Below are positions 2,796-17,607 of a DNA stretch of 64,000 bases, piece by piece. The DNA lies in NCBI GenBank assembly GCA_009780675.1, contig WQZP01000011.1:1-64000 (forward strand), in the 5' to 3' direction. Position 1 is the first letter of the stretch; each line of letters opens with the position of its first letter. This DNA comes from Spirochaetaceae bacterium. Lineage in GTDB: Bacteria; Spirochaetota; Spirochaetia; CADAEX01. A model generated the notes under the pieces. The model was given only the letters and a program-made list of their open reading frames with translations. It was not told where the DNA came from and ran no database searches. Position numbers and translations under genes: made by a program.

Positions 2796-4125
2796 TGATG
2801 AAAAAAACATCAGGACAGGACTAAAACAAGCTCTTGAAAACGAAGGCTATAATATCTATCTTGCTGCAGACGGGGCAGAAGCATTACTAATAATACAAAA
2901 GCATAAAGTAGATATTGTAATAACAGATCTTAAAATGCCCGAGATGTCCGGCGAAGAGCTTTTAAAAAAAATAAACAGTGATTATAAAGGGATACCAGTA
3001 ATTGTATTGACCGGACACGGAACAGTTGAAAATGCTGTGCAGGCAATGAGGGATGGGGCGTATGACTTTATTACTAAACCTCTTAATCTGGATCACCTTT
3101 TTTTAATAATAAAAAGAGCTCTTTCAAACAGGCAACTTCAGATGCAGCATAAAGCTTTGCAGGAAGAAGTTGATAAAATCAAAAACAGAAATAAGTATCT
3201 TGATCTTATAGGTAAAAGCAGCGCAATGAAAAAAGTTGTTGAAACAATAGAGCATGTTGCAGCAACAAAAGCTTCGGTGTTGATTACAGGCGAGAGCGGT
3301 GTAGGAAAAGAGGTTGTTGCAGATGTAATACACAATCTTTCTGATCGCAAAGACAAGCCATTTATAAAAGTTCATTGCGCTGCGTTATCCGAATCTTTGC
3401 TTGAGAGTGAGCTTTTCGGGCATGAAAAAGGGGCGTTTACAGGAGCTATTGCGAGAAAAAAAGGGCGATTTGAACTTGCGGATAAAGGGACTATTTTCCT
3501 TGATGAAATCGGGGAAATAAATCAATCTTTACAAATAAAATTGCTTAGAGTTCTTCAGCAAAAAACATTTGAAAGGGTAGGGGGAGAAGAACAAATAAGC
3601 GTTGATGTAAGAATAATTTCCGCAACAAATAAAAATCTTGAAAAAGAGGTTGAAAAAGGGAATTTCAGGGAAGACCTTTACTATAGGCTTAATGTTGTAC
3701 ATCTTAATATTCCTCCATTAAGAGAGCGGCAGGAAGATATACCTTTGCTTATTGCATATTTTATAAAGGAATTTGCAGAAGAAAATAAAAAAACCATTAA
3801 TGCCATTGATACAAAAGCGCAGGCAGCTCTTTCCAATTGCAAATGGAAAGGGAATATAAGAGAACTCCGCAACTGTATAGAAAGCGCTGTTGTAATGAGC
3901 AAAAGCAATATTATTACATATGATGATCTTCCTGTTGCAATAAAAAATGAATCAAATATCGATAACATAATTATTAAACCAGGAACAGCGCTGTCCGAAG
4001 TAGAGCGTATTGTAATAAATAAAACTCTTGCCATTCTTAATGGCAATAAAAGCAAGACAGCAGAGGCACTTGGTATAGGAAGAAAAACACTTCACAGAAA
4101 ACTTGCTGAATACAATATTGAGTAA
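2770..4125 (+). CDS. NtrC-family sigma-54-dependent response regulator
   Basis: A 451-residue enhancer-binding protein with all three expected domains. The receiver has Asp53 as phosphoacceptor (ITDLKMP) and Lys103 (ITKP). The AAA+ domain has Walker A GESGVGKE (174-181), the sigma-54 contact loop GAFTGA (221-226) and Walker B IFLDEIGE. The C-terminal Fis-type helix-turn-helix reads [20 protein letters not shown]. It should drive open-complex formation by RpoN polymerase after phosphorylation by the overlapping kinase. I chose ATG 2770, preceded by AAGGGG; in-frame ATGs at 2743 and 2764 are less well placed. The intact GAFTGA means sigma-54 must exist in this genome, although rpoN is not in this window. 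A matching promoter lies at 9626. Confidence 0.96.
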
Positions 4126-4148
4126 TTGAGCGGTTTTGTTGGTGTATA

Positions 4149-4291
4149 CTTTATCCGCGATAAAGCGCAAGATATCGTAGGTTGCGACATGGACATCGCA
4201 TCCTGCGCAGCGACATTGACGCCTGCGTGCGACTTTCCATGCGCTGCAGGCGGGCAGTATCTATCGGGGATGCGCCAAGCGATAAAGCGCA
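4149..4291 (+). repeat. GC-rich intergenic insert bounded by 13-bp direct repeats
   Basis: GCGATAAAGCGCA occurs at 4157-4169 and again, exactly, at 4279-4291. The DNA between them is strikingly GC-rich (CCTGCGCAGCG, GCGCTGCAGGCGGGC) against AT-rich neighbours. The left copy is part of a perfect hairpin, CTTTATC-CGC-GATAAAG at 4149-4165. The insert lies between the convergent ends of the NtrC gene and aspartokinase and holds no credible gene. It looks like a small repeat element of foreign composition; the hairpin could also terminate the NtrC transcript. Whether it recurs elsewhere in the genome cannot be seen here. Confidence 0.55.
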
Positions 4292-4309
4292 GCGTCCATC
4301 GTTGATGTC

Positions 4310-5647
4310 TTATTCGAAAAAAGCTTTATGGATTTTTTTTATTGTATTATCAACCTCATTTTCATTTAAAACTATAGAAAGAGCTACATCAGCTGCTCCC
4401 AGAGAAATCATTTTTAACGGCACAGGTGAAAGAGTTCCAAATACCTTTGATATCAATACCGGATCTTTCCATATATTTTTGCCAACAAGGCAGACAATTC
4501 CATTATTGCTTTCTATAGTTACTTTACCTATTGGGTCAAGTTCACTTTTTATAAGATTAATATTGCTTATATCTTCAACAGTCATTGATACAGATACTTC
4601 TGTAGTTGAAATAAGATCAACAGAAGTTTTATATTTATCAAATATTGCAAAAATTTTTGAAAGAAAACCATAAGCATTTAACATCCTGAAAGATGTAATA
4701 TTTATAGATGTTATATTTTTCTTTCCCGCAATACCTACAATACCTGTTGAGTCAAGTTTCTTGGTAATATAGGTTCCGGGACAGTCAGGATTTTTTGTAT
4801 TTTTTACAATGACCGGAATCTTCTTTTTTACAGTAGGCTGTATTGTAGAAGGGTGTACAACCTTGGCGCCAAAAAATGCGAGCTCTGCTGCTTCTGCATA
4901 AGAAATGGTCTCAAGCCTTTTTGCTGCTGGCGCAATACGGGGATCTGTAGTTAGTATTCCATCTACATCTGTCCATATCTGTACTTCCTCTGCATCAAGC
5001 GCAGAACCAATAATTGATGCTGTAAAATCAGACCCTCCGCGACCCAATGTTGTTGTGATCCCATCTTCGGTAGAGCTAATAAAGCCCTGGGTAATTATTA
5101 TTTTATTTTTTTTTGGTTTTACATATTCTTGTATTTTTGGATCTGTAAGTTCAAAGTTAGGCGCTGCTGATTTAAAATTATTATCTGTTATAATAAAATC
5201 TCTTGAATCAAGAAGCTCTGAATCAATTTTTCTTTCAACAGTTCTATGATATATCAAAAGAGTTGAAAGCTTTTCTCCAAATGAAACAAGCATATCAGAA
5301 CTTTTGGGGGAACATTCACCAAGCAGAAAAAGTCCTTTGGAAAAAGATTGAAGTTGTTGAAATAAACTGTCAAGAGCTTCGATTGCGTTTTCAAGGTTTT
5401 TACCTGTAAGAAAAGCATTTGCAACATCAAAGTGCATTTTTTTAAGAGATTCAATTGTTTCAGAAATACTATCTTTACTCTTTTCTTCTGCGAATTTCCC
5501 TATATTTAGAAGTTTATCTGTAACTTTTGACATTGCGGAAGAGACAAGCACAGGAGCTCTATCTATCTGATTCAGTGTAATGTCTATGGATTTATCGATC
5601 CAGTAGCTATCTTTTACCGAAGTACCGCCGAATTTTAATACAATCAT
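4310..5647 (-). CDS. lysC: aspartokinase
   Basis: A 445-residue monofunctional aspartate kinase, which phosphorylates L-aspartate in the first step of lysine/diaminopimelate, threonine and methionine synthesis. The N-terminal KFGGTSV nucleotide motif, the catalytic-domain segment TLGRGGSDFTASIIG and the EVQIWTDVDGILTTDP stretch are clear. Two ACT-type regulatory domains follow (GIVGIAGKKNITSINIT and IVCLVGKN), ending SIVLNENEVDNTIKKIHKAFF. No homoserine dehydrogenase domain is attached, so it is not a ThrA-type fusion. The gene is convergent with the upstream two-component operon and divergent from purine nucleoside phosphorylase. ACT domains imply end-product feedback inhibition; which amino acid cannot be told from the sequence. 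Confidence 0.95.
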   Translation of the reverse strand: MIVLKFGGTSVKDSYWIDKSIDITLNQIDRAPVLVSSAMSKVTDKLLNIGKFAEEKSKDSISETIESLKKMHFDVANAFLTGKNLENAIEALDSLFQQLQSFSKGLFLLGECSPKSSDMLVSFGEKLSTLLIYHRTVERKIDSELLDSRDFIITDNNFKSAAPNFELTDPKIQEYVKPKKNKIIITQGFISSTEDGITTTLGRGGSDFTASIIGSALDAEEVQIWTDVDGILTTDPRIAPAAKRLETISYAEAAELAFFGAKVVHPSTIQPTVKKKIPVIVKNTKNPDCPGTYITKKLDSTGIVGIAGKKNITSINITSFRMLNAYGFLSKIFAIFDKYKTSVDLISTTEVSVSMTVEDISNINLIKSELDPIGKVTIESNNGIVCLVGKNIWKDPVLISKVFGTLSPVPLKMISLGAADVALSIVLNENEVDNTIKKIHKAFFE

Positions 5648-6574: not shown

Positions 6575-8998
6575 ATGGTCTCTACAAATGCTTCTTCCAG
6601 AATAACTCTAAATGCGCTCGAGAAAATAAAAGACGCAATAACCGAAGCAAGACAAAATGAAGTAATGTTTTGTGGCACGCTCAACAATGATGGCTTTGTA
6701 GACACAATTATTGTTGCAGCAAGAGGAAATGAATCTGCTGTCCCTGCGCTTGAAGCATTTATGGAAAAAGGTGATGTTATAATCCATAACCATCCTGGCG
6801 GTTATTTAAAACCAAGCAACGCTGATCTAAACATAGCATCAATGCTTGGGAAGCAGGGAATAGGTTTTTTCATTATAGATAACAATGCAGAAAATATATA
6901 TGTTGTCGCAGAGCCTATACTAAATAAAAAAAGAGAACCTATTGATACAGAAACTCTTGCTGAAAATCTTTTGCCTGATGGTAAGTTTTCCAAATTATTT
7001 GAATATTATGAAATAAGAGAATCTCAGGTTGATATGCTTAAAGATGTTGTTGAGAGCTTCAATAATGAAAGCATTATAATCGCAGAAGCAGGAACAGGAG
7101 TTGGAAAATCTATTGCTTATCTTTTACCATCATTCCAGTGGGCAATAAACAACGAAGAGAGAGTTGTAGTATCAACAAATACAATAAACCTTCAGCATCA
7201 GCTCCTTGAAAAAGATATACCGCTTGCCAAAAAAATTCTTAATACAGATATAAAAAGCGCATTGATCAAAGGTAGATCAAATTATCTTTGCTTTAGAAAA
7301 TACTATGAATTTATTAATGAAAATTCCCTTTTCAGCGCTACTGAAAAAAATGGAATAATAGAAGTTATTAAGGATTGGGCATCTGTTACAGAAACAGGAG
7401 ATAAAGCAGATCTGCCTATAATTACAGATTACTCTGTATGGAGCGATATATGCTCAGATTCTGACTATTGCCTTGGGTTATATTGCCACTACAGGGAAAA
7501 ATGTTTTGTAATAAAAGCAAGAAAAAATGCTGCTTTGGCATCGATCCTTGTTGTAAACCACCATCTTCTCCTTTCTGATTTATCTACAAGAAATATGGGA
7601 GCAGGTTTTAATGGAACTGCTGTACTCCCTTTGTTCCGGCACACAATAGTTGACGAAGCGCATAACCTTGAATCAGCAGCTACTTCCTATTTTTCCGAAA
7701 CCCTTTCAAAAGGGTATATAATAAAAAGTTTTCGAAAACTTTATAGCAAGTATAAAACCAGAATTTTTGGAATATATGCTTTTCTTGTTGAGAATTCAGG
7801 GATTAATGAAAAAAAAGTAACAGCAATTCCGGAAACAATTTCCGAAATAATTGAAGCTTATGATAACCTGGAAAAAGAAGCAGAAGCTCTGCTTGCAGAT
7901 AAACAGAATTTGAAAATCGAAAAAACAGGTGAGTTTGATAATTTATTTCAACTCTTTTTAATATTTAAAAAAAAGCTTTCCGGGATATATCTTGTATTGG
8001 ATGAACTTTCTCAAAATATAGAAATAACTCCGGAAGATGATTCCAGAGTTTATGAACTTTTTTTAATAAAATCAAAAGTAAAAGAGTTGATTTCAATATC
8101 TGAAATTCTTACAGATGAACGGGAAGAATATGTAAGTTGGATAGAGAAAGGTAAAAACATCTCTTTTATACTTACACCGCTTGATGTAAGCAATCTTCTA
8201 AGAGAAGCATTATATGAAAACCTTAAAACAATTGTTCTTACATCCGCAACATTAAGCATAAAAGGAGATTTTGAATTCTGGAAAAAAAGGGTAGGTATTT
8301 CAGATATTGACAGAAAAATCGCAGAAAGATTTTTCCCTTCTCCATTTGATTACGCAAAATACGTTATGCTTACTGTCCCTACAGATATAAAAGACCCATC
8401 AGATAACCTATATACAGAAGAGCTTTCGGTTTTTATAAAAAACATGGTTATTACAGCAGATGGCGGTGCGCTTATTTTGTTTACTTCATATTCAATGCTT
8501 ATGGAAGTTTATAATATAATTAAAGAAGATATAACGAAAACAGGGATTACGATTTTAAGACAGGGTGAATTTGACAGATTTAAAATCCAAAAAATTTTTA
8601 ATGAAGATAAAAGAAGTATTTTGCTTGCAACAGATTCATTTTGGGAAGGGATAGACAGCCCTGGTGAGACACTCAAAATGGTTATAATATGCAGATTGCC
8701 TTTTAAAGTGCCTTCGGATCCTGTAATAAAATCCAGAATCGATAAAATCGAAAAACAGGGGGGGAACTCTTTTAAAGATTACCTGCTGCCCGAAGCAGTA
8801 ATAAAACTTAAACAGGGATTTGGCCGTCTGATGAGAAGAAAAGATGACACTGGAATTGTTGTAATTACAGATAACCGTATAATAAAAAAATCATACGGAC
8901 AAATCTTTTTATCATCACTTCCTAAAACTTTGACATACTATTCTGAAAGCAAGAATATTGAAAACAAAGTTGAAGACTTTCTGTTTAGCAAAAAATAG
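6575..8998 (+). CDS. dinG: JAMM (RadC-like) domain fused to DinG/XPD-type helicase
   Basis: An 807-residue protein in two parts. Residues 1 to about 115 contain a complete JAMM metalloprotease-type motif: Glu29, then His71-x-His73, seven residues, Ser81, two residues, Asp84 (in HNHPGGYLKPSNAD), as in RadC/MPN proteins. From about 145 onward it is a superfamily-2 DinG/XPD helicase: Walker A GTGVGKS (173-179), four cysteines typical of the XPD/DinG iron-sulfur domain (LCFRK, then CSDSDYC, LYC and REKC), the DEAH box VDEAHNLES near 358, and C-terminal motifs TDSFWEGIDSPGE and GFGRLMRRKDD. DinG unwinds 5'-tailed DNA, D-loops and RNA-DNA hybrids. The N-terminal domain is not part of E. coli DinG. 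No strong ribosome binding site is seen, so it is probably coupled to punA. Confidence 0.9.
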   Translation: MVSTNASSRITLNALEKIKDAITEARQNEVMFCGTLNNDGFVDTIIVAARGNESAVPALEAFMEKGDVIIHNHPGGYLKPSNADLNIASMLGKQGIGFFIIDNNAENIYVVAEPILNKKREPIDTETLAENLLPDGKFSKLFEYYEIRESQVDMLKDVVESFNNESIIIAEAGTGVGKSIAYLLPSFQWAINNEERVVVSTNTINLQHQLLEKDIPLAKKILNTDIKSALIKGRSNYLCFRKYYEFINENSLFSATEKNGIIEVIKDWASVTETGDKADLPIITDYSVWSDICSDSDYCLGLYCHYREKCFVIKARKNAALASILVVNHHLLLSDLSTRNMGAGFNGTAVLPLFRHTIVDEAHNLESAATSYFSETLSKGYIIKSFRKLYSKYKTRIFGIYAFLVENSGINEKKVTAIPETISEIIEAYDNLEKEAEALLADKQNLKIEKTGEFDNLFQLFLIFKKKLSGIYLVLDELSQNIEITPEDDSRVYELFLIKSKVKELISISEILTDEREEYVSWIEKGKNISFILTPLDVSNLLREALYENLKTIVLTSATLSIKGDFEFWKKRVGISDIDRKIAERFFPSPFDYAKYVMLTVPTDIKDPSDNLYTEELSVFIKNMVITADGGALILFTSYSMLMEVYNIIKEDITKTGITILRQGEFDRFKIQKIFNEDKRSILLATDSFWEGIDSPGETLKMVIICRLPFKVPSDPVIKSRIDKIEKQGGNSFKDYLLPEAVIKLKQGFGRLMRRKDDTGIVVITDNRIIKKSYGQIFLSSLPKTLTYYSESKNIENKVEDFLFSKK

Positions 8999-9688: not shown

Positions 9689-10567
9689 ATGTTGGTAGCA
9701 GAAAAACAAAAGACAAAAAAAACAAAAGCAATAGATAATGAAAATGTACTTGCAATTTATCTCAAAGAAATAAATACCATACCTCTATTGTCAAGGGAAG
9801 ATGAAGAAAAGTATGCTCGCCTTGCTGCTAAAGGGGATAAATATAGCCGTGATATGCTTGTTAAATCAAACCTTAGATTTGTTGTAAATATTGCAAAGAA
9901 ATATAAAAATCATGGAATAGATCTTTTGGACTTGATCAATGAGGGAAATATAGGACTTCTTAATGCAATAGAAAAATATGATGTTGATAGAAAATTTCAT
10001 TTTATTTCTTATGCAGTGTGGTGGATAAGACAGGCAATCTTAAAAGCTATTGGAGAAAAGTCAAGAATGATAAGGCTTCCGCTTAACAGAGTAGGGGAAG
10101 TTGTGCAAATTGAAAGAGTAAAAAAAGAATATCTTTCTGTTAGCGGAACAGAGCCTGAAATTAAAGATATTGCATCACATCTTAGCCTTTCCGAAGAACA
10201 TATAAAAGAAATGATAAGTATCTCCAGGGAACATATCTCTCTTGAGTCTCCTGTTACTTCTTTTGATAAAAATTCTTCTACAATGGGCGACTACATTGAA
10301 GATACAATGCATAAGCAGCCAGAAGAATACCTGATCGATAAATCTTTAAAAGAAGATATAAGTAAACTTTTATCAACTCTGTCTTTTAAAGAAGCAGATA
10401 TTATTGAGCAAAGATTTGGTCTTAATGGAGAATCTCCACAATCTCTCAAAGAAATCGGAGATAAGTATAATCTTACAAAAGAACGGATAAGGCAGATAGA
10501 AAAAAAAGCTCTTGAAAGACTGCAGCATGCTTCCAGAAGTCAGTACCTTGAAGCATATATGGGTTAA
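9689..10567 (+). CDS. group 2 sigma-70 family factor (RpoS/RpoD-like)
   Basis: A 292-residue sigma factor with region 1.2 (LAIYLKEINTIPLLSREDE), region 2 (LRFVVNIAKKY, DLINEGNIGLLNAIEKYD, FISYAVWWIRQAI), region 3 and region 4 with the helix-turn-helix SLKEIGDKYNLTKERIRQIEKKALERL. It lacks region 1.1 and the long non-conserved insert of housekeeping RpoD, so it is an alternative, RpoS-like factor. It recognises -10/-35 promoters of its own regulon. It stands alone behind a sigma-54 promoter, which implies that an NtrC-type activator switches it on, as for Borrelia rpoS. The gene content of its regulon cannot be read here. Confidence 0.93.
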   Translation: MLVAEKQKTKKTKAIDNENVLAIYLKEINTIPLLSREDEEKYARLAAKGDKYSRDMLVKSNLRFVVNIAKKYKNHGIDLLDLINEGNIGLLNAIEKYDVDRKFHFISYAVWWIRQAILKAIGEKSRMIRLPLNRVGEVVQIERVKKEYLSVSGTEPEIKDIASHLSLSEEHIKEMISISREHISLESPVTSFDKNSSTMGDYIEDTMHKQPEEYLIDKSLKEDISKLLSTLSFKEADIIEQRFGLNGESPQSLKEIGDKYNLTKERIRQIEKKALERLQHASRSQYLEAYMG

Positions 10568-10708: not shown

Positions 10709-11080
10709 ATGGAAAATAAGAAAATAGTCTTGGCAATTGATGATAATGTAACACAACTTGATATATTTAAAACAATTTTGGTTCCAAAATATGATCTCCG
10801 GGTTGTCAAAGCTGCTTCCGGAGCCCTCAGTTTTTTAAACAATAACAAAGTTGATATCATCCTTCTGGATATAAGTATGCCAAATATCTCTGGTTTTGAA
10901 TTTCTTGGTGATATAAGAAAAATCCCTAGTTATATGGATGTCCCAATAATTATTGTCAGTGGTAATACTGGAGAAGATTTTTTTAATGAGGCCAGAAATT
11001 CCAGCGCTGCCGATGTTTTGACTAAGCCGGTATCAGCAGAAGTATTAATTGATACAATAGAAAGAACTCTTGCACAATAA
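10709..11080 (+). CDS. stand-alone response regulator receiver (CheY-like)
   Basis: A 123-residue protein consisting only of a receiver domain: acidic pair Asp11-Asp12 (LAIDDN), phosphoacceptor Asp54 (ILLDISMPNISG), conserved Ser (IIVSGN) and Lys (VLTKPVS). There is no output domain, so it acts by protein contact, like CheY or Spo0F. I chose ATG 10709, preceded by AAAGGAAC; the frame stays open to an unlikely ATG at 10619. It lies 70 bases before the hydrogenase-chemoreceptor fusion on the same strand, which suggests that it takes part in the same signalling pathway. That link is inferred from position. Confidence 0.9.
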   Translation: MENKKIVLAIDDNVTQLDIFKTILVPKYDLRVVKAASGALSFLNNNKVDIILLDISMPNISGFEFLGDIRKIPSYMDVPIIIVSGNTGEDFFNEARNSSAADVLTKPVSAEVLIDTIERTLAQ

Positions 11081-11150
11081 CAGGCTAAAATCTTTTTATT
11101 TTTTTGAAGACTAAGACCGCGTTTTAGTAACATATGATTGAGAGGAAAAA

Positions 11151-13352
11151 ATGAGTAATATAAATACGCTTGTCCCGATTATAAAAATTGACGAAGAAAA
11201 ATGTATAAATTGTTATGCCTGTATTTTTGCTTGTCCGGTTAAATATTGTATGGATGGGTCCGGAAAAAGGTTGAAAATTAACGATAACCTGTGCATAGGC
11301 TGTGGTTACTGTATTCATGTCTGTCATCATGATGCCCGCAAGCCCATGGATGATACGGAACGTTTTTTAGGCGACTTAAAGAAGGGCGAAAAGATGGTCG
11401 CTATAGTTGCTCCGGCTGTTGCATCGGTTTTTGCCAAAAATTATCTCAGGTTGAATGGTTGCCTTAAATCTTTGGGGATCAAAGCAGTGTTTGATGTGAG
11501 TTTTGGTGCAGAGCTTACTGTTGTTTCTTATCTTAATTACATTAATGAAAAAAAACCTAGAATGGTGATTGCCCAACCTTGTCCTGCAATTGTGAGTTTC
11601 ATAGAAATTTATCATCCAAACCTGTTACCCTATCTTGCGCCTGCGGACAGCCCTATGTTGCACACTGCCAAAATGATTAGGGAGTATTACCCTGAATATA
11701 AAGATCATAAGATAGCGGTAATTTCTCCCTGTATTGCAAAAAAAAGGGAATTTATCGAAACCGGGTGGGGAGATTATAACGTTACCATGCTTGGCTTAAA
11801 AGAGGCGCTTGAGAAGCAAAAAATAGATTTAGAAAATTATCCTTCTGAGGAATACACAGGCGCGCCTGCGGAACGGGCAGTATCATTTTCCTCTCCCGGA
11901 GGTTTGCTGGATACGGCTGAACGTTTTATGCCTGGTATCAGGAGGAATACCCGTAAGATTGAAGGGGTTCATACAGTCTACCCTTATTTGAAGGGAGTTT
12001 CTGATATCTTGGACAAGCCGGACATTGAGTTTCCGCTGCTTATAGATTGCTTGAACTGCGAATTGGGTTGCAACGGAGGTCCTGGCACCGGAAACCATAA
12101 CAAAACCATGGATGAACTTGAAAGTCCGATCCGTAAACGTAGCGCCAAGCTGGAAAAAGAGCTGAATCCAAGAAAACAGGAAGGAATATACAAAAAATAT
12201 CACAAGACTTTGAGTAATTTTTGGAAGGCAGGTCTGTATAATCGTAAATATCAAGACCGTTCCAAAACTTTTGATGTAAAGTTGCCAAGCCAGGCAGAGT
12301 TAGACGAGATTTATAAAAGCCTTAAAAAATTCAGCGATGCAGATATATACGATTGCACAGCCTGCGGTTATGGATCCTGCAAGTCAATGGCAATTGCAGT
12401 TCTTAATAAACTCAACAAGCCTGCAAATTGCGCGCATTACAATATGGCGCTCCTTGAGGAAGAGAAAAAAACCACTGTGTATATCAACCAACAGCTTAAG
12501 GAACACATTGCCCGCGCTATTCAGGTAATCGAAGAGATTACTAGTTTAGTTGAAAAACTGGACACTAAAATAAACGCACAATCAGAATCAGTAAATGAGT
12601 CCTCGTCAGTTACCGGAGAAATGGTAGACGCGCTCAAAAATACTTCCGAACTTTCCAGACAAAGACGGGAAGGCATAAGAGGCTTGATTGAAAACGCAAC
12701 CAAGGGTCAGGATGCCATGAAAGAGACTATTGGAGCAGTTCAAAATATATCCCAGTCTATAGATGGTATAGGATCAGCAATAAAAATAATCAGTGTTATT
12801 GCGGCTAACACTAATCTTCTCTCAATGAACGCTGCTATTGAGGCTGCTCATGCAGGCGAAGCAGGCAAGGGTTTTGCGGTAGTAGCTGATGAAATCCGGC
12901 GCCTCTCGGAATCTACCAGAGAGAATTCGCGGAACATTTCCCAAACCTTGTCAAACATCATTGCGGGTATTAACATTTCTTCCAAGCGTGCTGGCGATGC
13001 AGGCAGCATAATCAATGAAATGTCAAATGAGATAAATGGCTTTGCAGGGACAATGACCGAGCTTATTGATACTTTAGGCGAGTTGTCCGCAAAAAGTTCC
13101 GGAGTTACCACTTCGCTGGAAAGTTTAAAGGAACAAAGCGCTGCAGTTAAGACAGATTATACACAAATGCTTTCTTTAACAGATAAAATTCGATATGACA
13201 TTAACTTCCTTGCAGCCCTGTCAGCAGACATTGTAAGGGCTATAGAGAATAATGACTATGATGTAATTTCCAAAATAACTGTTGTGGAAGCTAAAATAGA
13301 AGCTAAAATGCGTGAAAAAGAAGAGCAGGAGAAACAGAACATTAAAAACTAA
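11151..13352 (+). CDS. sensory [FeFe]-hydrogenase fused to a chemoreceptor signalling domain
   Basis: A 733-residue soluble protein. Residues 18-28 and 48-58 bind two 4Fe-4S clusters (CxxCxxCxxxC twice). The H-cluster domain follows with Cys144 (AQPCPAI), Cys194 ([10 protein letters not shown]), and Cys303 and Cys307 (NCELGCNGG). These are all four H-cluster cysteines, in diverged versions of the TSCCP, MPC and ACPGGC boxes of catalytic enzymes. A further Fe-S motif lies at 402-427 (CTACGYGSC...C). From about 440 to the end there is a methyl-accepting chemotaxis coiled coil with the hairpin tip [31 protein letters not shown] split over residues 554-585. No transmembrane segment or CheR-docking tail is present. 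It should sense hydrogen or redox state and signal through CheA/CheW. A strong terminator follows. Confidence 0.93.
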
Positions 13353-15231: not shown

Positions 15232-17607
15232 GTGGGAAAGCAAAGAAAAATCAGCAAAAGAAGCATTGCAATGATTATCATTGTCATGTTGTTTTTTACA
15301 ACAACACTCCTGCACTTGTCTGGGTTTTTTAATTTTCTGGAATACAAGTCTTATGATTTAAGGGTACAATTTTTTTCAAAATATAGCCGCCCCTCCGATG
15401 ATATTGTAGTAATTTTGCTGGATCAACACAGCCTTGACTGGGCTCAAAGAGAACGGGGCTGGGGATGGCCTTGGCCGCGTCAGGCTTATGCTGAAATAGT
15501 GGATTATATGCGTCAAGGAAAAGCTCATTCAGTTATTTTCGATCTTATTTTTTCAGAACCTTCGATCCATCGCAATATCAGGCAAGACGAGATCGTTGAC
15601 ACTGCAATTGGAAAGCTGGAACAAACCAGAGCCCTTATTGCAGGAGGAGAGATTCGCTCAGCAGACCCGATTTTCATGGAAATAGAAAAAACTATCCAAA
15701 GTTTAAGCGCCAGAGAGGATGATGAAATTTTTATCCAGGCAACGCAAAACTTTGACCGCGTGGTGCAAACAGTTTTTTTTAGCAGTCAAACCGGGAATAT
15801 TTTTTCCTGGCCCGAAAGTCTTAATCAACCCTTGTTTGAACTTAAAAACTTTGGTACTGTGTTGGAAAAATTTGAACTTGGCAGGGAAATAGGGGCTCAG
15901 TTTCCAATTCCGGGATTGCGGGAAGCTGCCGGGGCATTGGGAAGCGCTACAGGTATATTGGATTCAGACGGCGTTATCCGAAGGCTAAGGCTCTTTACCA
16001 TGTTTGACGGCAAAGCTGTACCCGGGCATGCTGCTGCTGCTCTGCTGGTTTCGGGGCATAAGCCGCAAATCAGTTATAATGAAAGAAGCAGAGCCATCCA
16101 GTGGGGAGATTTTTCCATTCCTGTTGACAGAAACGGCAAAACCATATTGCGATTCCGGGAAAATCTTGACCGTTATATCCCATATAGCGCCATGTACATT
16201 CTGCAAAGCGCCGAAGCGCTTGAGAGGGGCGAAACACCTCTTTTGCCTCCTGAAAATTTCCGGAATACTCATGTGTTTCTGGGGGTACATGCTCCCGGTC
16301 TTTTCGATATTTTTCGTACTCCCATTTCCGGGGCATATCCTGGCATGGGTTGTCACATTACCTTTTTGGATAATATGCTTCAGGGAGATTTTATTCGCGA
16401 AAGCCCTCAATGGCAAAACCTGCTTATTCTTTTGTCTGCGATCGCTTTAACAGTTCTGCTCGTTATGTTCTCCGGACGTATTCCTCTGGCAGTTGGCGGA
16501 ACGATTCTTATTGCGCTCTTGATCACTGTTGTTTCATTCGCAGCTTATCACTGGGGAAACCTCTGGCTTCCCATTGTGCCACATATAGCGGGAATTGCTC
16601 TGGCTTTTGCAACAGTAACTCTTTACAACTATGCCACCGAAGGCAGTCAGAAGCGGTTTATCAAATCTGCTTTTTCCCAATATCTTTCACCCAAAGTTAT
16701 TGAAAGAATAATCGCAGACCCTTCCCAGCTTAAACTTGGAGGCGAAAAACGGGAAATGACAGCGATTTTTACAGATGTCAGAGGTTTTTCCACAATTTCA
16801 GAAGCTCTTGGCGACCCTGTAAAATTGGTAGAGCTGCTTAATCTTTACCTTACCAAAATGAGCAATATTATTCTTGACAATCAGGGAACTATTGACAAGT
16901 ATGAGGGGGATGCGATTATTGCTTTTTTTGGAGCGCCGGCGCGCATGGATAATCACGCAATACTTGCGTGTCGCTCAGCAGTTCTTATGAAAAAAGCTGA
17001 AAAAGAAATCAACAGAGCAGCGCTGGAGCAGGGACTTATTTCCCAAGAGGTAATGCAAACGTTAGCTTCAAAAGGCATGCTAAAAAGCGCGGAAAATCCA
17101 ATGCCGTTATTTACCAGAATTGGAATCAATACCGGCGAAATGGTAGTAGGCAATATGGGTACTCCAAATAAAATGGACTATACCATAATGGGAAATGCTG
17201 TGAATCTGGCAGCCCGGCTTGAAGGGGTAAACAAGCAGTACAACACTGGCGGCATTCTTATAAGCGAATATACACGGGGCCATCTTGCGGATAATTTTAT
17301 TCTGCGGCCACTAAGCAGGGTTAGGGTAGTGGGTATTAGCACCCCTTTACGGCTTTACGAACTTTTGGATATTGCAGAAGAAGCATCCGTGGATATTGTT
17401 GCAGCAGTAAAGAGCTGGGAGCAGGGGTTCATGGCTTATGAAAACCGGAATTTTCTTGCTGCCCGAAATATTTTTGATACCATTTATCAGCAAAACAACG
17501 AAGATTTAGCTGCTAAAAAATACTTTGACCGCTGTGTCAAATACCTTGTTTCTCCGCCTGATGAAATTGCATGGGATGGGGGAGTAGATAATTTAACGGA
17601 AAAATAG
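15232..17607 (+). CDS. CHASE2-domain adenylate/guanylate cyclase
   Basis: A 791-residue membrane-bound class III cyclase that makes cAMP or cGMP in response to an extracytoplasmic signal. One N-terminal helix (13-32) is followed by a CHASE2 sensor domain (about 35-385: YKSYDLRVQFFSKYSRPSDDIVVILLDQHS, VIFDLIFSEP, GRIPL), then three close membrane helices (396-465). The catalytic domain (about 508-690) has metal-binding Asp515 (FTDVRGFS) and Asp560 (KYEGDAIIAFFGAP), plus GINTGEMVVGNMG and YTIMGNAVNLAARLE. The start is GTG 15232, preceded by AGAGGGAGAG. It is the first gene of a same-strand cluster with the SH3 and M48 genes. The leader carries a slippage-prone heptamer tract. Confidence 0.93.
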   Translation: MGKQRKISKRSIAMIIIVMLFFTTTLLHLSGFFNFLEYKSYDLRVQFFSKYSRPSDDIVVILLDQHSLDWAQRERGWGWPWPRQAYAEIVDYMRQGKAHSVIFDLIFSEPSIHRNIRQDEIVDTAIGKLEQTRALIAGGEIRSADPIFMEIEKTIQSLSAREDDEIFIQATQNFDRVVQTVFFSSQTGNIFSWPESLNQPLFELKNFGTVLEKFELGREIGAQFPIPGLREAAGALGSATGILDSDGVIRRLRLFTMFDGKAVPGHAAAALLVSGHKPQISYNERSRAIQWGDFSIPVDRNGKTILRFRENLDRYIPYSAMYILQSAEALERGETPLLPPENFRNTHVFLGVHAPGLFDIFRTPISGAYPGMGCHITFLDNMLQGDFIRESPQWQNLLILLSAIALTVLLVMFSGRIPLAVGGTILIALLITVVSFAAYHWGNLWLPIVPHIAGIALAFATVTLYNYATEGSQKRFIKSAFSQYLSPKVIERIIADPSQLKLGGEKREMTAIFTDVRGFSTISEALGDPVKLVELLNLYLTKMSNIILDNQGTIDKYEGDAIIAFFGAPARMDNHAILACRSAVLMKKAEKEINRAALEQGLISQEVMQTLASKGMLKSAENPMPLFTRIGINTGEMVVGNMGTPNKMDYTIMGNAVNLAARLEGVNKQYNTGGILISEYTRGHLADNFILRPLSRVRVVGISTPLRLYELLDIAEEASVDIVAAVKSWEQGFMAYENRNFLAARNIFDTIYQQNNEDLAAKKYFDRCVKYLVSPPDEIAWDGGVDNLTEK

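Follow-up and report, generated by a model that had tools for sequence, protein, structure and literature searches.

An H-domain chemoreceptor of the putative chemotactic [FeFe] group C2 type in a spirochaete genome, and its relatives in genomes without detected maturases

Introduction

In termite and rumen guts, H2 serves as a key currency. A gene in the 64,000-nucleotide stretch of spirochaete DNA analyzed here (the window) joins the H-cluster domain (H-domain) of an [FeFe]-hydrogenase to the output of a methyl-accepting chemotaxis protein (MCP), which raises the question of whether such a domain carries an H-cluster and reports H2 to chemotaxis. We know of no [FeFe] chemoreceptor that has been assayed, and the literature that we searched contained neither an assay of any protein of HydDB group C2, the class to which we assign this receptor, nor studies of H2 taxis. 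Ballor, Paulsen and Leadbetter devoted a 2012 paper to H2 sensor/transducer proteins in termite-gut treponemes (cited in PMC12483993). Its abstract reportedly proposes a methylation or chemotaxis output. Those proteins share a host group and niche with the present receptor.

Results and Discussion

Architecture of the Receptor Gene

The receptor gene is open throughout its length. The features of the locus are as follows, all on the forward strand.

10709..11080 (+): lone receiver protein, 123 aa from the likely start ATG 10709, ending 70 bases upstream of the receptor gene
11140..11145 (+): ribosome-binding site GAGAGG ahead of ATG 11151, read from the sequence and rated good
11151..13352 (+): H-domain chemoreceptor gene, 733 aa (open reading frame, Pfam, orthologues)
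11178..11336 (+): two [4Fe-4S] ferredoxin motifs, residues 10-62, C18 C21 C24 C28 and C48 C51 C54 C58 (Pfam; invariant in relatives)
11391..12083 (+): H-domain Fe_hyd_lg_C, residues 81-311 (Pfam, 112.8 bits, cut-off 22.1; sensor-module model)
11571..11591 (+): L1 motif AQPCPAI, with P143 at the CpI C299 place and C144 as the first H-cluster ligand (alignments)
11724..11741 (+): L2 motif S192-P-C194-x-x-K197, with CpI M353 replaced by Ser and the ligand Cys and Lys kept (alignments)
12045..12080 (+): L3 motif D299-C300-L301-N-C303-E-L-G-C307, with CpI M497 replaced by Leu and an extra Cys300 (alignments)
12354..12431 (+): C-terminal accessory cluster motif Cx2Cx4Cx16C, C402 C405 C410 C427 (Pfam, alignments)
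12432..13247 (+): chemoreceptor coiled-coil arms, residues 428-699 (full-length model, moderate confidence)
12690..13169 (+): MCP signalling domain MCPsignal, residues 514-673 (Pfam, 99.4 bits, cut-off 34.6)
12828..12866 (+): hairpin tip, putative CheA/CheW contact region (residues mostly invariant among relatives)

The fusion of an H-domain with a chemoreceptor is a real observation and not a chance joining, since orthologues with 40-75% identity occur in many genomes. The original prediction, made from the letters of the window, described a 733-residue protein with the H-cluster cysteines 144, 194, 303, and 307, two ferredoxin clusters, an extra Fe-S motif, and a full MCP hairpin without a membrane segment, together forming a direct fusion to a cytoplasmic chemoreceptor; this description held throughout. 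The four cysteines lie at these positions and are invariant in relatives, Pfam placed Fer4 pairs at residues 11-58, and the FeS domain PF04060 at residues 400-428 scored 21.9 bits, slightly below its cut-off of 23.0, with its four cysteines conserved in relatives. MCPsignal lies in the same chain, and the highest 19-residue Kyte-Doolittle mean was 1.35, indicating no membrane segment; with the conserved hairpin tip, these features are those of a cytoplasmic methyl-accepting chemotaxis protein. The CheA/CheW contact role of the tip is our assumption from known MCP biology.

The full-length model predicted helices at residues 428-567 and 569-699 with moderate confidence, and no HAMP or PAS match was found by Pfam, so that the coiled coil joins the FeS domain directly. 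This model was only fair overall (pLDDT 68.1, pTM 0.51), and we therefore make no claim on the geometry between sensor and receptor. A strict methylation motif is absent from the receptor sequence, in which a single loose match occurs at residue 658, and adaptation may thus be weak.

The lone receiver 70 bases upstream, also noted in the original prediction, is real and likely shares an operon with the receptor gene; its linkage, however, is confined to the nearest relatives. Synteny (60-76% identity) was seen only in seven of these (L004-L008, L021, L022) and is missing from more distant ones, and we rejected the receiver as an essential partner of the receptor. One of the seven, L021, has two related receivers (7604-7969 and 10183-10545), one on each side of the receptor gene. 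Elsewhere in the window, the product of 15232-17607 (+) resembles, by eye, a CHASE2-type sensor with a class III nucleotide cyclase.

Active Site and Predicted Fold

Active-site places were set by alignment to the group A HydA of the same genome, using CpI numbers as in earlier work (PMC8163306, PMC11803613). The receptor retains Cys144, Cys194, Lys197, Cys303, and Cys307, and has Pro143 at C299, Ser192 at M353, and Leu301 at M497. In alignments of the nearest relatives, the H-cluster ligands and Lys197, which we expect to contact a diiron cyanide, are all invariant, and the extra Cys300 is typical of most of the sensor clade. The stretch bearing E279 and E282, which we place by our own reading in a gap of the alignment with the group A HydA, is absent from the receptor, and the group A proton pathway thus appears to be lost.

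The motifs AQPCPAI and ISPC read as originally reported. The accompanying view that they are typical of group C stands as to a sensory type, but Ser at M353 and Leu at M497 are closer to the group D enzyme TamHydS than to the group C enzyme TmHydS (Gly, Ser). TmHydS (Thermotoga maritima, group C, M2f) resembles the receptor in its two ferredoxin clusters, its H-domain, its Cx2Cx4Cx16C cluster, and the loss of C299, and differs in ending in a PAS domain and in having Ala/Gly/Ser where the receptor has Pro/Ser/Leu. TamHydS (Thermoanaerobacter mathranii, group D, M2e) shares Ser at M353, Leu at M497, and the same accessory clusters, whereas its C299 place is taken by Ala rather than Pro and it lacks a chemoreceptor output. 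The Cx2Cx4Cx16C motif is common to both enzymes, and sensory enzymes with such active-site changes show slow turnover (PMC8163306, PMC11803613). In a survey of HydDB sensory enzymes, Pro occupied the C299 place in ≈10% and Ser the M353 place in ≈32% (PMC10055695). Based on the substitutions, these frequencies, and the Ser/Leu match with TamHydS, the receptor pocket appears to be of a slow, sensory type that is not exactly that of TmHydS.

An AlphaFold model of the sensor module (residues 1-430), built with 23 sequences, reached a pLDDT of 90.1 and a pTM of 0.90. All 50 of the PDB matches listed were [FeFe]-hydrogenases or complexes holding one, with TM-scores by query length of 0.60-0.69. Fe_hyd_lg_C with four H-cluster cysteines and the predicted hydrogenase fold place the domain in the [FeFe]-hydrogenase H-domain superfamily. 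This predicted fold and the ligands might also suit a working catalytic hydrogenase tethered to receptor arrays, but Pro at C299, Ser at M353, Leu at M497, the missing E279/E282 stretch, and the slow turnover of sensory enzymes with such changes make that reading highly improbable.

Class Assignment and the Sensor Clade

HydDB divides the sensory enzymes considered here into C1 (histidine kinase), C2 (chemotactic), and C3 (phosphatase), and defines [FeFe] group C2 as "chemotactic (putative)", an H-domain linked to an MCP output and a putative H2 sensor (PMC5037454). The receptor has the same H-domain and methyl-accepting chemotaxis output in one chain, and we assign it to the group C2 type by architecture and motif frequencies, not by the HydDB classifier. 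Group A does not fit: AQPCP and SPC stand for TSCCP and MPC, the E279-E282 stretch is missing, and TIGR02512 scored 109.1 bits, below its cut-off of 405.95. For group B, the NCBIfam model TIGR04105 gave 142.6 bits, short of the 450 that it requires. Traits of group D (TamHydS type) are present, namely the hydroxyl residue Ser192 at M353, Cx2Cx4Cx16C (C402-C427), and no PAS match. A group D placement from active-site residues was not adopted, as the output differs, an MCP output being not reported for group D, and TamHydS is absent from our tree.

The direct chemotaxis fusion, put forward in the original prediction as a novelty, is not new, because HydDB already defines C2 and fusions of this sort are common among spirochaetes. 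C1 and C3 enzymes have been reported in Rectinema, another spirochaete (PMC6052044), and in a survey of acetogens the enzymes first called as group C2 were dropped on validation (PMC9431212).

We built a quick tree from 65 H-domains, with set labels resting on motifs and architecture and with no named HydDB reference included. It recovered one set (SH-aLRT 100) comprising the receptors, a histidine-kinase paralogue, and a Chlorobiota SpoIIE protein, distinct from groups A and B and from the PAS-type sensors. The outputs inside this set are MCP (the window, L019, and almost every spirochaete copy that we read), PAS-GAF-PAS-HisKA (L103), and PAS-SpoIIE (L020), a variety that mirrors HydDB classes C1, C2, and C3. 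L103 (1-3933 (-), G000:C9) is a second sensor of the window genome, a group C1-like sensor kinase whose gene is cut by the contig end. It belongs to the same QPCP sensor clade as the receptor, but differs in its PAS-GAF-PAS-HisKA output, in a sensor only 33% identical, and in the lack of Cys300; its long branch leaves its exact place within the clade unsure. Directly upstream of L103 lies a receiver-HD-GYP-like gene (3950-4981, read by eye). The Chlorobiota protein (L020, 453-3455) joins the same sensor module to a PAS-SpoIIE phosphatase, an output swap. A tandem pair of receptor genes from the sensor clade was seen at L145 (G381:C4:19475-22822).

Genome Context and Proposed Mechanism

The window genome is 2.4 Mb and 99% complete. 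The best matches to the receptor share its design, reach 75% identity, and come from Treponema and spirochaete MAGs. By our reading of isolate names and known sampling, many of these derive from termite guts; this suggests that the host is a relative of termite-gut Treponema. The genome encodes one HydABC-type group A hydrogenase and, away from the receptor, HydG (692.5 bits), HydF (453.4 bits), and HydE (360.2 bits), so that a search for the maturases, proposed as a check on the original prediction, found all three. CheA, a CheW-CheR fusion, CheX, and CheB are also present.

We favor, with a probability of roughly 0.6, the reading that the receptor is a group C2-type cytoplasmic chemoreceptor for H2 or redox state with a low-turnover [FeFe]-hydrogenase input module. 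HydE, HydF, and HydG, whose genes lie apart from the receptor gene, would load the H-cluster into the receptor. Binding of H2, or the redox poise set by H2 through the ferredoxin clusters, would then change the conformation of the H-domain and the C-terminal FeS domain. Continuing straight into the coiled coil, the FeS domain could alter CheA activity and thereby swimming, and in the H2-rich termite gut movement would be biased along H2 or redox gradients. In TamHydS (group D), H2 shifts the secondary structure and the C-terminal cluster stays unreduced (PMC13104023), which suggests that the signal may be conformational rather than relayed by electrons.

The receptor might instead sense H2 or redox state and drive a non-swimming output, through the lone receiver, which is linked in the nearest relatives, or through a second CheA-like hybrid kinase of the genome (Hpt, ATPase, CheW, and receiver; G000:C13). 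We regard this as improbable, given that the CheA, CheW-CheR, and CheX set usual in spirochaete chemotaxis is also present and that the receptor is conserved far more widely than the receiver. The window genome combines maturases, a single catalytic hydrogenase, and a pair of same-clade sensors that differ in output, which makes it a compact system in which to ask if H-domains signal H2 to the chemotaxis machinery.

Receptors in Genomes without Maturases

A search of 393 sampled spirochaete genomes with the sensor model found carriers in 86 genomes and 45 of 168 genera; Bacteroidota carry the sensor too. E-value cut-offs were of our own choosing (HydG 1e-90, HydE 1e-30, HydF 1e-60), at which a very divergent maturase would escape. 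Of the 393 genomes, 127 gave a match to HydG and 196 to a group A hydrogenase. The sensor is found together with HydG more often than expected by chance (odds ratio 5.4, p 4e-11, across the 393 spirochaetes with shared ancestry uncorrected): 54 of the 86 carriers have HydG and 32 are without it. Twenty-nine of these 32 come from the same class, each with a completeness of 92% or more. HydE was absent from all 29 and present in 16/16 control genomes; HydF was absent from 28, the exception being G253, and present in 9/9 controls. A group A hydrogenase was absent at our cut-off in 19 of the 32 HydG-less carriers (17 of the 29 in the same class), and the carriers examined that lack it still have another H-domain protein of ≈490-550 residues.

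We read 53 receptor copies, 31 from HydG-less and 22 from HydG-bearing genomes. Cys144, Cys194, Cys303, and Cys307 are kept in every copy, and Pro143 in 50, with Thr in two and Ser in one. The MCP output is present in 52/53, and the ferredoxin motifs are intact in 52/53, the remaining record being without the first four cysteines at its 5' end. The receptor copy of G096 is interrupted by stops. Between receptors of HydG-less genomes, dN/dS was 0.03-0.19 (13 pairs with dS estimable), and the low values indicate that these genes are under selection.

These ligand-complete receptors in 29 same-class genomes without HydG and HydE, their low dN/dS, and the lost proton path are what would be expected of an Fe-S redox or other small-molecule chemoreceptor, one that retains the fold of a hydrogenase and the cubane portion of the H-cluster site but has no diiron centre, the maturases of the window genome serving HydABC only. 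We hold this reading to be rather unlikely in view of two loci and one residue. In G245 (L160), hydE and hydG flank the receptor gene, with hydF following; in G301 (L161), the receptor gene adjoins hydE, with hydG and hydF after it. No group A hydrogenase was found in either genome at our cut-off. Receptor genes inside a hydE-G-F cluster would tie the clade to H-cluster assembly, and this gene order favors the presence of a true H-cluster, at any rate in genomes that have maturases. Lys197, presumably a contact of the diiron cyanide, is kept in receptors from maturase-free genomes. Moreover, four maturase-free genomes carry intact TSCCP group A hydrogenases, so that an unrecognised maturation route is possible.

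The preferred reading, an H2 or redox chemoreceptor with a low-turnover hydrogenase module, draws on the invariant ligands, the predicted fold, the HydEFG genes, the maturase-cluster loci, the co-occurrence, the MCP output, the Che genes, and the HydDB C2 definition; the 32 of 86 carriers without HydG, the lost proton pathway, and the lack of a strict methylation motif count against it. H2 sensing is likely for the window receptor, and may not hold across the whole family, since receptors persist in genomes without maturases. For the class at large, we give a minor share of probability to C2 chemoreceptors working without a HydEFG-made diiron centre, in many spirochaetes with cubane and accessory clusters only and sensing redox state or another ligand, or else to an unrecognised route of H-cluster maturation there. 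If there is no diiron centre, the label "H2 sensor" would misdescribe a large part of the C2 class; the maturase-free relatives are a natural test of the need for one. As far as the literature could be searched, this maturase paradox is undescribed.

The paradox is not confined to receptors. H-domain proteins occur in near-complete spirochaete genomes without detected HydE, HydF, and HydG, among them G073, G162, G166, G206, G241, G270, and G348 (loci L162-L164, L166-L180, L184-L199). These proteins include canonical TSCCP group A hydrogenases in G348, G270, G224, and G073, and HydG was not detected at our cut-off in 88 of the 196 genomes with a group A hydrogenase.
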